Part shown: positions 17,183 through 20,399 of the stretch, in pieces
How positions within the stretch are numbered: the first letter of the stretch is position 1
How the letters are laid out: the number at the start of each line of letters is the position of its first letter
Position numbers and translations under genes: made by a program
Source: an uncultured Saprospiraceae bacterium
GTDB taxonomy: Bacteria > Bacteroidota > Bacteroidia > Chitinophagales > Saprospiraceae
Assembly: GCA_937974575.1 (NCBI GenBank)
Contig: CALJVI010000272.1
Coordinates: 1 to 34,434 of the forward strand
Direction of reading: 5' to 3'
Length of the DNA stretch: 34,434 nucleotides
The notes under the pieces: model-generated
Told to the model about the DNA's origin: nothing
What the model saw: only the letters and a program-made list of their open reading frames with translations
The model's database searches: none

Positions 17183-17605
17183 CTAAGGAAAAGCAGATAC
17201 CCAATGACTACCATCTGTAAAATACTCTTTTTTCCAAATGGGTACGGTTTCCTTGAGCGTATCAATGCAAAATCGACAAGCATCAAAAGCAGCTCCTCTA
17301 TGATCGGCCCCTACAGCTATAATAACAGCAATTTCTCCCACCTCAAGACTACCTACCCGATGCCAAATAGCTACCCTTTTACAATCAAAATCCGAAATAG
17401 CTCTATCTGCTATTTTTTGCATTTCCTTTATAGCCATGGGCTCATACGATTCAAAATCCAAGTGGGTAACCGTCCTGCCTAAAGCATGATTTCGTACAGT
17501 ACCTACAAACAAGTCAATTCCGCCAATTTCCGGCAATTCAACGCATTTTAGGATTGCCTCCACTGATAGTTTTTGGTCAGAAATTTGCAGATGTGTATTG
17601 TCCAT
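17183..17605 (-). CDS. moaE: molybdopterin synthase catalytic subunit MoaE
   Basis: Converts precursor Z (cPMP) to molybdopterin by transferring sulfur from the C-terminal thiocarboxylate of MoaD; it forms a heterotetramer with MoaD in the cytosol. The 140-residue length is normal. Conserved segments include FVGTVRNHALGRTV (about 34-47), HRVGSLEVGEIAVIIAV, ADHRGAAFDACRFCID and KETVPIWKKEYF with the active-site lysines, followed by DGSHWV. moaD is present in the window but 700 bp away, separated by an oppositely oriented gene; no other moa or moe gene is seen here. A possible minus-strand terminator hairpin lies 41 bases before this start. Confidence 0.95.
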   Translation of the reverse strand: MDNTHLQISDQKLSVEAILKCVELPEIGGIDLFVGTVRNHALGRTVTHLDFESYEPMAIKEMQKIADRAISDFDCKRVAIWHRVGSLEVGEIAVIIAVGADHRGAAFDACRFCIDTLKETVPIWKKEYFTDGSHWVSAFP

Positions 17606-17647
17606 ATTTATGTGGCCCTAAATAATCAATATTTCCGTAAAACATAT

Positions 17648-17678
17648 AAAAAAAAGTGACATTTATACACAATGTCAC
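17648..17678 (-). promoter_or_regulatory. hairpin plus T run upstream of moaE (attenuator or operator)
   Basis: Perfect 8-bp inverted repeat GTGACATT (17656-17663) and AATGTCAC (17671-17678) with a 7-base loop. Read on the minus strand it is followed by eight T, an intrinsic-terminator layout, yet no gene ends here: moaE starts just 43 bases further on. It may act as a leader attenuator of moaE, stop antisense transcription, or be an operator of the divergent gene. Confidence 0.5.
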
Positions 17679-17720
17679 GTCATAAAGGTATTAATTAACT
17701 AACTACAAATCGAGATTATT

Positions 17721-18206
17721 ATGATGATGGAATTAATAAAAGGTATGGTAATGAAGCAATTAGCAAGTAAGCTAATGGGCGGTTCAATGAACGAAGCTGT
17801 ATCAGGTGCAGTAGCTTCTCAAGGAGCAGGTGCATTTGTATCAATGATACAAGAAAAACTAACAGGAGGAGGAATAGGTGATCTTACAGCTATGTTTTCT
17901 GGTGAAGGTGAAGGCGGAGATTTGATTTCTGGTTTTCAAGAGAAGCTAGGAGGTATCATGCAAGAGCAAGGCGTGTCTGCTGAAGATGCTACAGCTCAAG
18001 CTGGATCTGTTGCTCCAGATCTTTTCAACTCAGTAAAAGAAAAATTTGCTTCAACTGATGAAGCTGATGCAGGATTTGACATCTCTGCTTTAGCTGGACT
18101 TGCTGGAGGCGGAAGTGCAGCGGACCTTTTAGGAGGTGCAGCTGATATGCTTAAAGGAAATGCAGGCGACTTGCTAGGAAAAGCAACTGGTTTGTTTGGT
18201 AAATAA
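17721..18206 (+). CDS. Gly/Ala-rich protein, possibly DUF937-like
   Basis: A 161-residue cytosolic protein without signal peptide. It consists of amphipathic helices separated by Gly-rich turns (LTGGGIGDLTAMFSGEGEGG, ALAGLAGGGSAADLLGGAA, GDLLGKATGLFGK). This layout recalls the DUF937/YidB family, but no diagnostic motif is certain. It is acidic overall. The two ATG codons before residue 3 leave the start uncertain by one or two residues. It sits between moaE and moaD but in the opposite direction, with its own strong terminator, so a molybdopterin role is not implied. Function unknown. Confidence 0.7.
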   Translation: MMMELIKGMVMKQLASKLMGGSMNEAVSGAVASQGAGAFVSMIQEKLTGGGIGDLTAMFSGEGEGGDLISGFQEKLGGIMQEQGVSAEDATAQAGSVAPDLFNSVKEKFASTDEADAGFDISALAGLAGGGSAADLLGGAADMLKGNAGDLLGKATGLFGK

Positions 18207-18247
18207 AATAGAGATTAAATTCTCTAAATATAAAGCTTGAAACACCG

Positions 18248-18281
18248 AAAGCCAATTCATTTTATGAATTGGCTTTTTTTT
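18248..18281 (+). terminator. Rho-independent terminator
   Basis: A perfect 13-bp stem (AAAGCCAATTCAT at 18248-18260 with 18264-18276), loop TTT, then a long T run. It ends the plus-strand gene at 18206; the A residues on the left may let it act on the convergent moaD transcript as well. Confidence 0.92.
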
Positions 18282-18310
18282 ATTGCTATTGACTTTTACC
18301 ACGAAGGACC

Positions 18311-18553
18311 TTAGCCCCCACTGACGGGTGGAATGATCGCAATAGTATCAGACTCTAAAATACGGTCCTCATCATTGGCATAAGACTCATTCACTGCTAT
18401 CATTAGAGATTTGAGTTTTTTGGACTCTGGATACTTATCATGTAGATAAATCTTTAGATCCTGAACTGTAGTACCAGGCTCCAATTCCACATTCAATGTA
18501 GTGTGACCGACCATCTCCTTAAGAACTCCAAACAATAAAATATCCAACTTCAT
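18311..18553 (-). CDS. moaD: molybdopterin synthase sulfur-carrier subunit MoaD
   Basis: An 80-residue ubiquitin-fold protein ending in PPVSGG. The terminal Gly-Gly is adenylated and thiocarboxylated (by MoeB-type enzymes) and donates sulfur to MoaE during molybdopterin synthesis. The N-terminal strand DILLFGVLKEMVG and the segment LEPGTTVQDLKIYL fit MoaD/ThiS; MoaD is preferred over ThiS because moaE is nearby and the ILESDTIAIIPPVSGG ending is typical of MoaD. It lies 12 bp after the DUF1330 gene and appears to be the last gene of a minus-strand cluster that starts with the Xre/RES pair. Confidence 0.92.
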   Translation of the reverse strand: MKLDILLFGVLKEMVGHTTLNVELEPGTTVQDLKIYLHDKYPESKKLKSLMIAVNESYANDEDRILESDTIAIIPPVSGG

Positions 18554-18565
18554 AATTACATTTTG

Positions 18566-18943
18566 CTATTTGCATAAAATCAATCGAGAATCAGCAAGTG
18601 CTTTTTTTCGTATTGCTCCCGGATAATCAGGACTACTGATCATATTGATAAATTTTGCCTTGGTCTCATACTCAATTATCAAGACCTTATCCCACTCTAA
18701 GTCCCCAGCAGGGCCTATCAATGTAAAATAAGGCTTACCATCATAAATCACCCGTGCTCCTGCCTCTAGAAAATAAGGCATCACTTCTTTCATGTATTTT
18801 CTATACTGCTCCTTGCCACTAATATCTGTACCTTCTACACGATCTACAAATTTGAGTAAGTTCAGCATTTGGAATTTTTCTTCCACATCATACTTCATAA
18901 ACTCTAAGTACTGCTCCTTGGTAAGCTCTAAATATACATCCAT
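18566..18943 (-). CDS. DUF1330 family protein
   Basis: The 125-residue protein matches the DUF1330 dimeric alpha-beta barrel family: MLNLLKFVDRV near residue 26, YRKYMKEVMPYFLEAGARVIY, LIGPAGDLEWDKVLIIEY and FINMISSPDYPGAI. Family function is unknown; related folds bind small aromatic compounds or haem. It is cytosolic. It starts 26 bp after the RES toxin stop and ends 12 bp before moaD, so it is likely co-transcribed with both, although an internal promoter could exist in the 26-bp gap. There is no sign that it belongs to the toxin-antitoxin function. Confidence 0.85.
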   Translation of the reverse strand: MDVYLELTKEQYLEFMKYDVEEKFQMLNLLKFVDRVEGTDISGKEQYRKYMKEVMPYFLEAGARVIYDGKPYFTLIGPAGDLEWDKVLIIEYETKAKFINMISSPDYPGAIRKKALADSRLILCK

Positions 18944-18969: not shown

Positions 18970-19428
18970 TCAAGAAAACAATCTGCGATCAAAACGAAAT
19001 GCTTCCCTTTTTACAATCTTTATTTTACTGAATAACTTATGCTGCGGATTGATCAGATAATTAAAATCTCCTTGTGTCACCACTGAAGGAACTCTACAAA
19101 GCAAAAACTTATTTTCCAATACAAAGTCATCTCCTATATGTTGCGTATTGGGCAGCTGTGGGAAAATATTCCAATCTTTGGGTAGATTTTTCAATTTGAT
19201 CTCCTTGGTCGGCGTTTTATCTGGACACTGTAGCGTAAGCATAATATAATCGTCCGGAAGAGTGGCAAGAGAAAAATGAACCAAAATTTCAGCCATTGCC
19301 AAGGATCTATTGGATGCTGTATAAATTAATTCGACTCCTGCAGAATTCCATCTGCCTCCTTTCAAAGCAGCTCCTTTTCCAGAAAGTACTTTTGAGTATT
19401 TTTTGCGTGTCAATCGAAACAGCTCCAT
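18970..19428 (-). CDS. RES-domain toxin of a type II toxin-antitoxin pair
   Basis: The 152-residue protein has the RES-domain hallmarks: Arg5 (LFRLTR), GGRWN at 24-28, Tyr36 and Glu47 (SLAMAEILVHFS), the residues that give the family its name. Characterised RES toxins consume cellular NAD+ (glycohydrolase or phosphorolytic activity), which stops growth. The ATG follows directly on the antitoxin stop (TAGATG), as expected for translationally coupled antitoxin-toxin genes. The frame is intact with all key residues, so it is probably active when free. The toxin is the downstream gene of the pair, the usual Xre-RES order. Confidence 0.93.
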   Translation of the reverse strand: MELFRLTRKKYSKVLSGKGAALKGGRWNSAGVELIYTASNRSLAMAEILVHFSLATLPDDYIMLTLQCPDKTPTKEIKLKNLPKDWNIFPQLPNTQHIGDDFVLENKFLLCRVPSVVTQGDFNYLINPQHKLFSKIKIVKREAFRFDRRLFS

Positions 19429-19929
19429 CTAGATAAAGATGCCATGGTCCAAACGTGTCAACTCTGTCATCACCAGCTCCTTGCCATATGAGTCACTGAG
19501 TAACTCCATAGGAGCAATACTGCCTAAAGCGAAATTGGGGGTATTGAGCCAAAGCAAGAACTTGGATGCCGACCCGAAAATCTCAAAGCCTAAAATAGTC
19601 ACCTCCGTAACCTCAAAGATCTTCTCGGTTTGGAGGGACTTGAAAGTCTTATTGTCCTTTTTGTAACGCTGCATGGACTTGGTAGAAATACCCAAAAAAA
19701 CAGCCCAATCCTCCTCCGAATATGGAGCACTCTGCATAATCGTATCAAAAATATCGTAACTGAGTCCTTTTTTGATGATCAAGGTAAGCAAGAGCTTATC
19801 GTCTAGCCAATCCGAAATACTCGAATGGCTCAACTCGCGGTCTGAATAATACGGAGCTTTTGCATCCTTAACTATGCTGTGCATCCCTTTGGTAATCTTA
19901 TCGTCTGCAGCTGTAGGAAATAAATACAT
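19429..19929 (-). CDS. Xre/MbcA/ParS-type antitoxin (DUF2384)
   Basis: The protein fits the antitoxin partner of RES toxins: an N-terminal Xre-like HTH region (SYDIFDTIMQSAPYSEEDWA then FLGISTKSMQRYK) and a C-terminal DUF2384 toxin-binding part (TEVTILGFEIFGSASKF, LWLNTPNFALGSIAPMELL, then LDHGIF). I choose the ATG at 19929 (MYLFPTAADDK, 166 residues) over a TTG at 19977, because the TTG lies inside the operator-promoter repeats. It binds and neutralises the RES toxin encoded next and very likely represses its own promoter through the twin palindromes just upstream. The toxin gene follows with no gap. Confidence 0.9.
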   Translation of the reverse strand: MYLFPTAADDKITKGMHSIVKDAKAPYYSDRELSHSSISDWLDDKLLLTLIIKKGLSYDIFDTIMQSAPYSEEDWAVFLGISTKSMQRYKKDNKTFKSLQTEKIFEVTEVTILGFEIFGSASKFLLWLNTPNFALGSIAPMELLSDSYGKELVMTELTRLDHGIFI

Positions 19930-19936
19930 AATATGG

Positions 19937-19977
19937 ACATTTGTCCCAAATATAGTACATTTGTCCCAAATATTCAA
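19937..19977 (-). promoter_or_regulatory. Xre/RES promoter with twin palindromic operators
   Basis: Two identical 17-bp copies of ACATTTGTCCCAAATAT (19937-19953 and 19957-19973, offset 20 bp) each contain the palindrome ATTTG-GGA-CAAAT. On the minus strand a -7 box TATATTTG (19954-19947) follows a -33 TTG (19977-19975) at a 20-base spacing, matching the Bacteroidota consensus. One operator lies between the two boxes, the other overlaps the -7 box and likely start site, about 8 bases from the antitoxin ATG. Confidence 0.85.
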
Positions 19978-20237
19978 GTCATTGCTTTGATTTTGTGAGC
20001 AAGAGGAGCCAGCAAGAGCAAGAGTTAAGAGCTTTGAGGATATAGCTCGGGAGCACCCATAAAATGTGTCATATAGAGCGTAGCTCTGTCGGTAGGTGCG
20101 GCTCCATGGTAACCTTAGGCCAGCTGGAGTTGCACCCTTTAATTTAAATCTCTAACCATGAAACATACCTCTATCTAAAAACTTCAAATATCCCCGAAGC
20201 TGCAATCTTGTATTTTGCTCAATCCTCCTGTTCAACC
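19978..20237. repeat. hairpin cluster in the intergenic region after the TA promoter
   Basis: No gene is visible. GAGCAAGAG (19997-20005) and GCAAGAGCAAGAG (20012-20024) are inverse to the CTCTTGCTC tandem repeats further right. A small hairpin AGAGC-GTA-GCTCT lies at 20075-20087, and a larger one pairs 20095-20106 with 20125-20136 (12 bp, two G-T pairs; GGTGCGGCTCCA with TGGAGTTGCACC). The compact hairpins look like REP-type or similar extragenic elements, by inference. Confidence 0.5.
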
Positions 20238-20399
20238 CTCTTGCTCAGGACTCTTGCTGAATACTCTTGCTCTTACTCAATTCCTCTTGCTCAATACTCT
20301 TGCTCTTACTCAATTCCTCTTGCTCAGTACTCTTGCTCTAAACTCTTGCTCTAAACTCTTGCTCAGTACTCTTGCTCTTGCTCAATTCCTCTTGCTCAA
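20238..20399. repeat. tandem CTCTTGCT repeat array
   Basis: Twelve copies of CTCTTGCT start at 20238, 20251, 20264, 20284, 20297, 20317, 20330, 20343, 20356, 20369, 20375 and 20389. Spacing is mostly 13 bp with two 20-bp steps. Intervening bases vary (CAGTA, CTTACTCAATTC). A 114-residue ORF over it encodes only Leu/Thr-rich repeats and is not a credible gene. Confidence 0.85.

Follow-up and report, generated by a model that had tools for sequence, protein, structure and literature searches.

How an Xre/RES toxin–antitoxin operon might control its own promoter, and which bases its antitoxin would read there, are the questions raised by a short segment of DNA from an uncultured Saprospiraceae bacterium. 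The whole stretch analysed here, called the window, comprises 34,434 nucleotides of contig CALJVI010000272.1. Xre/RES pairs are type II toxin–antitoxin systems in which the toxin depletes NAD and the antitoxin neutralises the toxin. The sequence makes it probable that the locus is an autorepressed operon of this type, in which the Xre-RES complex would clamp two candidate operators placed across the promoter. The two genes are the following:

19429..19929 (-): Xre antitoxin gene, starting at ATG 19929, 166 aa, with a helix-turn-helix (HTH) and a DUF2384 toxin-binding domain.
18970..19428 (-): predicted RES toxin gene, 152 aa, NF049844 177.1 bits (cut-off 110), PF08808 78.9 bits (cut-off 23.2).

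The antitoxin gene immediately precedes the toxin gene, the antitoxin stop and the toxin ATG being directly adjacent (19429/19428). The first-pass annotation had called the two genes an Xre/RES pair, and both exceed the cut-offs of curated models (NF049844 and PF08808, NF049845 and PF09722). Run on a longer frame that begins at a TTG, the antitoxin scored 107.7 bits with NF049845 (cut-off 90) and 42 bits with PF09722 (cut-off 24.5), the C-terminal MbcA/ParS/Xre toxin-binding domain thus being present, while the HTH model PF20432 stayed under its own cut-off (23.3 vs 25.8 bits) on that same frame. The HTH is nevertheless counted as present because the antitoxin, modelled with confidence by AlphaFold2 (mean pLDDT 94.2), finds its best PDB matches, by fold comparison, in the antitoxins of 8gug, 6gw6 and 9r35, and because the profile aligns the HTH with that of 6gw6. 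The best match of the antitoxin by both profile (1.3e-23) and fold is the Vibrio parahaemolyticus VPA0770-VPA0769 pair (PDB 8GUG), whose toxin also matches (9.2e-22). Pseudomonas aeruginosa NatR-NatT (PDB 8QNL) is also a RES/Xre system, whose 4:2 complex binds its own promoter (PMC11535050), and a weaker fold match to the window antitoxin; the available text of that article does not define its operator. As an operon it is a typical representative of a family already described. On the same strand, 3' of the toxin, lie genes for a DUF1330 protein, a MoaD-like protein and MoaE (window 17183-18943, (-)), and a degenerate tandem array of CTCTTGCTC units (window 20215-20397) separates the toxin–antitoxin operon from lepA.

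The starting observation was a repeated palindrome upstream of the antitoxin gene. Two identical 17-bp copies had been described with a start-to-start distance of 20 bp, each holding the palindrome ATTTG-GGA-CAAAT, and both the copies and the palindrome are there, ATTTGGGACAAAT being exact at 19939-19951 and at 19959-19971:

19957..19973 (-): upstream 17-bp repeat copy, containing the palindrome at 19959-19971.
19937..19953 (-): downstream 17-bp repeat copy, containing the palindrome at 19939-19951.

With up to two mismatches, ATTTGGGACAAAT has four matches in the window (1.97 expected), and the exact string occurs three times in the bacterium's own 3.3-Mb assembly (89.7% complete), the third occurrence lying inside an ORF on another contig and being dismissed as chance. 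When the 400 bp upstream were shuffled 500 times with dinucleotide composition kept, no exact direct repeat at offsets of 12-45 was longer than 10 bp; the real 400-bp region also carries a 34-bp exact direct repeat, attributed to the array at 20.2-20.4 kb. The agreement of the two window copies over 17 bp includes the string ATATTTG ahead of each site, and could be explained by duplication or gene conversion acting locally on the box together with its site. A sequence-blind score was also used, which adds the palindromy of two 10-mers to their likeness to each other. The best pair in the window scores 14, a value reached by 64 of 2000 shuffles, so that palindromy alone is unremarkable. Two registers tie at 14 in the window, one like that of the first-pass palindrome and another centred on GACA, and therefore only relatives can tell them apart.

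Twenty-five related loci were recovered by scanning genome contigs, all of them with a RES toxin match beside the antitoxin. Upstream of these genes GACAnnTGTC is often followed, one base further on, by a TAnnTTT box, then, after two or three more bases, by a second GACAnnTGTC, and finally by an ATG. In total, 207 loci were collected, two of which (L002 and L072) were dropped since they had no antitoxin match; the remaining 205 were reduced to 160 at 80% identity, window included, and two with runs of N were excluded. As the GACA motif had been fixed by eye from loci L005-L078, the 109 non-redundant loci fetched later were counted apart. Both sites, with at most two mismatches in the 16 fixed bases, were found in 18 of these 109 unseen loci, vs 0.06 expected from 5,450 shuffles, all of them at an offset of 21 or 22 (one tied with 35), and 75 of the 109 have at least four mismatches to the GACA pair.

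Over the whole set, pairs with up to two mismatches were present in 39 of 157 relatives and in none of five shuffles of each, with offsets of 21 (32 loci), 22 (six) and 14 (one). When up to three mismatches were allowed, GACANNTGTC pairs were found in 68 of 157 relatives (3.0 expected). Native controls, drawn at these loci from coding sequence and from regions far upstream, gave 0/158, 0/157, 1/82 (offset 14) and 0/69. Among the 21 close relatives, 17 carry a pair with up to three mismatches at 20-22 bp, and L039, L046, L083 and L109 fail that criterion. The sequence-blind score showed no clear peak in 21 loci with a 3-mismatch GACA pair (1.0 at offset 21 vs 0.5, and none at 22). The record of one locus, L024, is titled as a Rhizobium sp. 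MAG, the locus being Flavobacterium-like by eye and the contig probably mis-binned. Pairs of GACA-NN-TGTC sites, mostly 21-22 bp apart, are strongly enriched in Bacteroidota relatives.

The layout of the promoter region in the window, with the sites placed in this register, is as follows:

19975..19977 (-): -33 TTG element, which is also the TTG start of the listed ORF.
19956..19965 (-): candidate operator site 1, which occupies the -33/-7 spacer and reads GACAAATGTA, one mismatch away from GACANNTGTC.
19947..19954 (-): -7 box, TATATTTG, between both sites, its position being conserved in relatives.
19936..19945 (-): candidate operator site 2, which reads GACAAATGTC, matches GACANNTGTC exactly and overlies the predicted transcript start.
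19942 (-): predicted transcription start, with a leader of about 13 nt, deduced by placing the -7 box at -12 to -5.

Bacteroidota sigma-A promoters carry a TTG near -33 in addition to a -7 box. In the window such a promoter had been proposed as TTG-N20-TATATTTG, and its letters are present, with the TTG at 19977-19975, the N20 spacer and TATATTTG at 19954-19947. Bacteroidota promoters and starts have been treated in PMC9723704 and PMC6847099. The sigma-A -7 consensus is TAnnTTTG (PMC9723704), which TATATTTG fits, the window box having the particularity of lying between two candidate operators. With the -7 box placed as in Flavobacterium psychrophilum (PMC9723704), at -12 to -5, the transcript would start near 19942, leaving a leader of about 13 nt, and with this start site 2 would span about -3 to +7 and site 1 would lie within the -33/-7 spacer.

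Comparison with relatives supports the claim that two sites wrap a Bacteroidota-type promoter. A TAnnTTT box with up to one mismatch is found in the spacer of 40 of the 50 loci with offset 21 (22.9 +/- 3.3 in shuffled spacers) and of eight of the ten with offset 22 (4.4 +/- 1.3). A TTG starts 11 or 12 bp ahead of site 1 in 23 of the 50 offset-21 relatives, the distance being 12 bp in the window. The 62 loci with a pair have it at offset 21 (50 loci), 22 (ten) or 20 (two), so that the 20 bp of the window is unusual and shared only with L029, which has three mismatches; the base missing in the window sits between the -7 box and site 2.

The same comparison bears on the start codon. The listed ORF begins at TTG 19977, its first in-frame ATG being 19929, and the first-pass annotation had moved the antitoxin start from the former to the latter. 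Counting from site 2 onwards, 55 of the 62 loci that carry a pair have their first in-frame ATG within 30 nt of the end of that site, and an in-frame ATG further upstream exists in three of the 62. This placement favours ATG 19929 as the start and leaves TTG 19977 as the -33 element. Six relatives (L036, L049, L016, L074, L162 and L168) have their first in-frame ATG, counted from where site 2 starts, inside that site. GACAAATGTC itself contains an ATG, so translation may start within the operator in some relatives. In L025, around 2870-2910, site 1 and the following box are apparently duplicated across the start codon (GACAAATGTCGTAATT twice).

Relatives that have no GACA pair were also informative. 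Among 97 such Bacteroidota loci, about 43 reach a sequence-blind score of at least 13, and their best offsets peak at 22 (14.5 vs 1.4 shuffled) and 21 (5.5 vs 0.5). About 20 of the 97 carry other matched palindromes 21-22 bp apart, with half-sites that include GTAA, GCCA, ATCA and GTCA. Outside Bacteroidota, the best pair lies at 21-23 bp in 17 of 22 sampled loci at a loose threshold (12). These loci come from plasmid representatives that were hand-picked for diversity, and several of them are related (Enterobacterales, Burkholderiaceae, Halomonas, Pseudoalteromonas) and therefore not fully independent. The first set, scored from annotated starts, comprises 14 of 18 plasmid loci (L235, L248 and L249 are without an annotated antitoxin start and L247 repeats L233) and gave 10/14 with the best pair at 21-23 (0.94 expected), or 5/14 at the stricter threshold of 13 (0.09 expected), part of this set having been seen before the 21-23 range was chosen. 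The four loci that fall short at threshold 12 belong to Hydrogenophilus, Citrobacter b, Skermanella and Paraburkholderia PGU19; in L231, L243 and L245 the best offset ties with others, the Meiothermus pair (L243) being unconvincing by eye. The second set, eight loci picked before their promoters were seen and scored with the rule already fixed (four starts being inferred from protein match), gave 7/8 at 21-23 (0.48 expected) and 5/8 at threshold 13 (0.04 expected). By eye, many non-Bacteroidota loci have a TATAAT-like string between the sites. The Bacteroidota plasmid loci L236, L237 and L238 entered no count; L236 yielded neither repeat nor palindrome, and L237 has, besides a palindrome of the GTAAAATTAC type, a weak 23-bp repeat.

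The diversity of half-sites can be set against that of the antitoxins. The recognition helix corresponds to residues 83-92 of the antitoxin model. A mutual-information test was applied to the 59 antitoxins with a called pair, using groups of at least four members (45 antitoxins), and the z values placed residue 84 first in association with the half-site, residue 61 (outside the helix) second and residue 89 third. When pairs of antitoxins less than 30% identical outside the helix were used, the top five of 117 columns were 87, 79, 89, 84 and 82, each of which belongs to the recognition helix or lies next to it; below 25% identity the signal was weaker, with residue 124 first and residues 156 and 114 also in the top five. 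By profile alignment residue 84 corresponds to Arg67 of the Pseudomonas putida antitoxin, in its recognition helix, which contacts bases and whose change to Ala abolished repression (PMC12204516).

Helix classes, defined after the table was seen, agree with half-sites as follows: GACA in 19/25 antitoxins of the class K/R84-R88-Y/N/I89 (another half-site call in 6/25), GCCA in 7/8 with K/R84-R88-R89, ATCA in 5/6 with A84-R88-R89, ACCA in 4/4 with S/T84 and S/G89, and GTAA in 4/4 with S84-K88-K89; 12 of the 59 antitoxins fall in no class. Beyond Bacteroidota, the combination of GACA with RTLQRY-like helices extends to a cyanobacterium (L233) and a Nitrospirota plasmid (L232); that of GCCA with RTLxRR helices is shared by Bacteroidota and Burkholderiaceae. 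An exception is L189, whose RTLARR antitoxin has GACA. The half-site therefore appears to follow recognition-helix residues, with common descent as a confounder.

The closest functional model is the Xre-RES system of P. putida (PP_2433-2434; PDB 6GW6 and 9R35), with the same Xre/DUF2384 antitoxin and RES toxin. Its 4:2 complex represses through a palindrome, and a position some 20 bp upstream is predicted to take a second dimer (PMC12204516). The window resembles it in having a palindrome near the start, through which autorepression operates in P. putida, and another site about 20 bp upstream; the P. putida second site is itself a prediction (AlphaFold 3 and a crystal contact), compared here by the description in that article (PMC12204516). 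In the window, the candidate site near the start was found, is conserved in relatives, and is accompanied by the other candidate at 20 bp, a distance of 21-23 bp in relatives. Unlike the P. putida arrangement as described, both sites have nearly the same sequence in the window and a -7 box lies between them.

A mechanism of repression can be proposed on this basis. The two near-identical palindromes GACAAATGTA (19965-19956) and GACAAATGTC (19945-19936), both on the minus strand, flank the -7 box, a layout that recurs in relatives. Each site would accommodate one Xre dimer, whose recognition helix (about residues 83-92 of the window antitoxin) would make the contact, and the two dimers, belonging to one 4:2 Xre-RES hexamer or being simply adjacent, would sit about two helical turns apart. 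At 21 bp, which makes two turns of B-DNA, the dimers would point in the same direction, and the 20 bp of the window deviates by about a tenth of a turn. Placed close to the same DNA face, the dimers would exclude RNA polymerase sterically; loss of Xre dimers would reopen the promoter and allow the antitoxin to be replenished, translation presumably proceeding from ATG 19929 behind a leader of about 13 nt. Cooperative binding is plausible. We infer binding, bridging by one 4:2 complex, polymerase exclusion and relief, the last steps being modelled on the P. putida system.

Other explanations of the repeats differ in what they take the operator to be, or in the protein that would bind it. According to the operator model of the first-pass annotation, the dimers would bind symmetrically about the centre of ATTTG-GGA-CAAAT. 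That palindrome is perfect in both window copies, where it ties with the GACA register, and there is a weak enrichment in relatives, ATTTGNNNCAAAT pairs with up to three mismatches being found in 10/157 (1.0 expected) and pairs of the shorter TTTGNNNCAAA with up to two mismatches in 16/157 (3.0 expected). However, with up to two mismatches ATTTGNNNCAAAT pairs are reduced to 1/157 (0.2 expected), the offsets of the shorter form are scattered from 17 to 39, and GACANNTGTC pairs are far more enriched in the same relatives. Moreover, in a profile of the 50 offset-21 loci the left arm of the palindrome is poorly conserved at site 1 (0.10-0.51 bits per position); these loci were chosen by their GACANNTGTC sites, which inflates the bits inside those sites; the selection took no account of the left arm, of the -7 box or of flanking sequence. 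We therefore regard ATTTG-GGA-CAAAT as a very unlikely operator, and its ATTTG reads better as a -7 box abutting the operator. The observation behind that model was right, as was its outline, but the operator is to be redrawn as GACA-NN-TGTC. Still less credible is that the palindromes serve a global regulator or belong to a mobile repeat. Some pairs do lie away from xre in other genomes, three of them in G080, but the bacterium's own assembly (3.3 Mb, 89.7% complete) contains a single GACA pair, on which ground the global-regulator reading was rejected, the half-site tracks the helix class of the antitoxin, and of the 18 distinct places at which a pair with three mismatches occurs in 150 genomes, 11 are just upstream of an antitoxin. 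In that scan a backward control pattern had nine matches in two genomes, eight of them in one. The exact pair pattern occurs at four distinct places in 395 genomes, two of which precede xre. With 7/18 and 2/4 of the places lying away from xre, the pair search was discarded as too weak for genome-wide detection by itself. The G080 pairs (L208, L211 and L228) are 21 bp apart and have no listed xre gene beside them; one is inside an ORF (L208), another in a convergent gap (L211) and the third has three mismatches (L228), and they could be extra targets or chance. Two further genomes, G149 and G153, have seven and nine antitoxin matches, and these paralogues would be useful for studying how operators are insulated from one another.

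A more serious alternative, which we still consider unlikely, accepts the GACA register and takes only the start-covering site as a real operator, with one palindrome per hexamer and the upstream copy being weak or accessory. Site 2 of the window matches GACANNTGTC exactly, against one mismatch in site 1, and in P. putida only S4 was bound in vitro, 1:1 with the hexamer, S3 alone being unbound (PMC12204516). Nevertheless, relatives and loci from other phyla also carry the two sites, at an almost constant spacing, and neither site is better overall in the profile of the relatives, where site 2 has the sharper left arm and site 1 mostly the sharper right. The reading in which the complex holds both sites thus stays the preferred one. 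Extended to the family, it is held with less assurance, at slightly better than even: Xre/RES operons across bacteria would share one grammar, in which a single hexamer bridges, with its two Xre dimers, matched palindromes 21-23 bp apart that enclose a -7 or -10 box, and helix residues set the half-site.

Xre/RES systems are known, and a shared two-site rule was not found in the literature searched on RES/Xre systems. The available text of PMC12204516, PMC11535050, PMC12457610, PMC7301842 and PMC8065639 describes no paired operator across species, and a search of literature text with GACAAATGTC returned no title on Xre/RES among the matches listed. The paired-operator rule bears on an open point of the 2025 structure paper, since a near-fixed paired site in several phyla speaks for that point and makes it testable. 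It also offers a sequence rule for locating Xre/RES promoters and start codons, and a candidate protein–DNA recognition code for the Xre antitoxin family. The recurrence of the arrangement in several phyla suggests that the antitoxin complex may grip its own promoter at two points and thereby switch it off.
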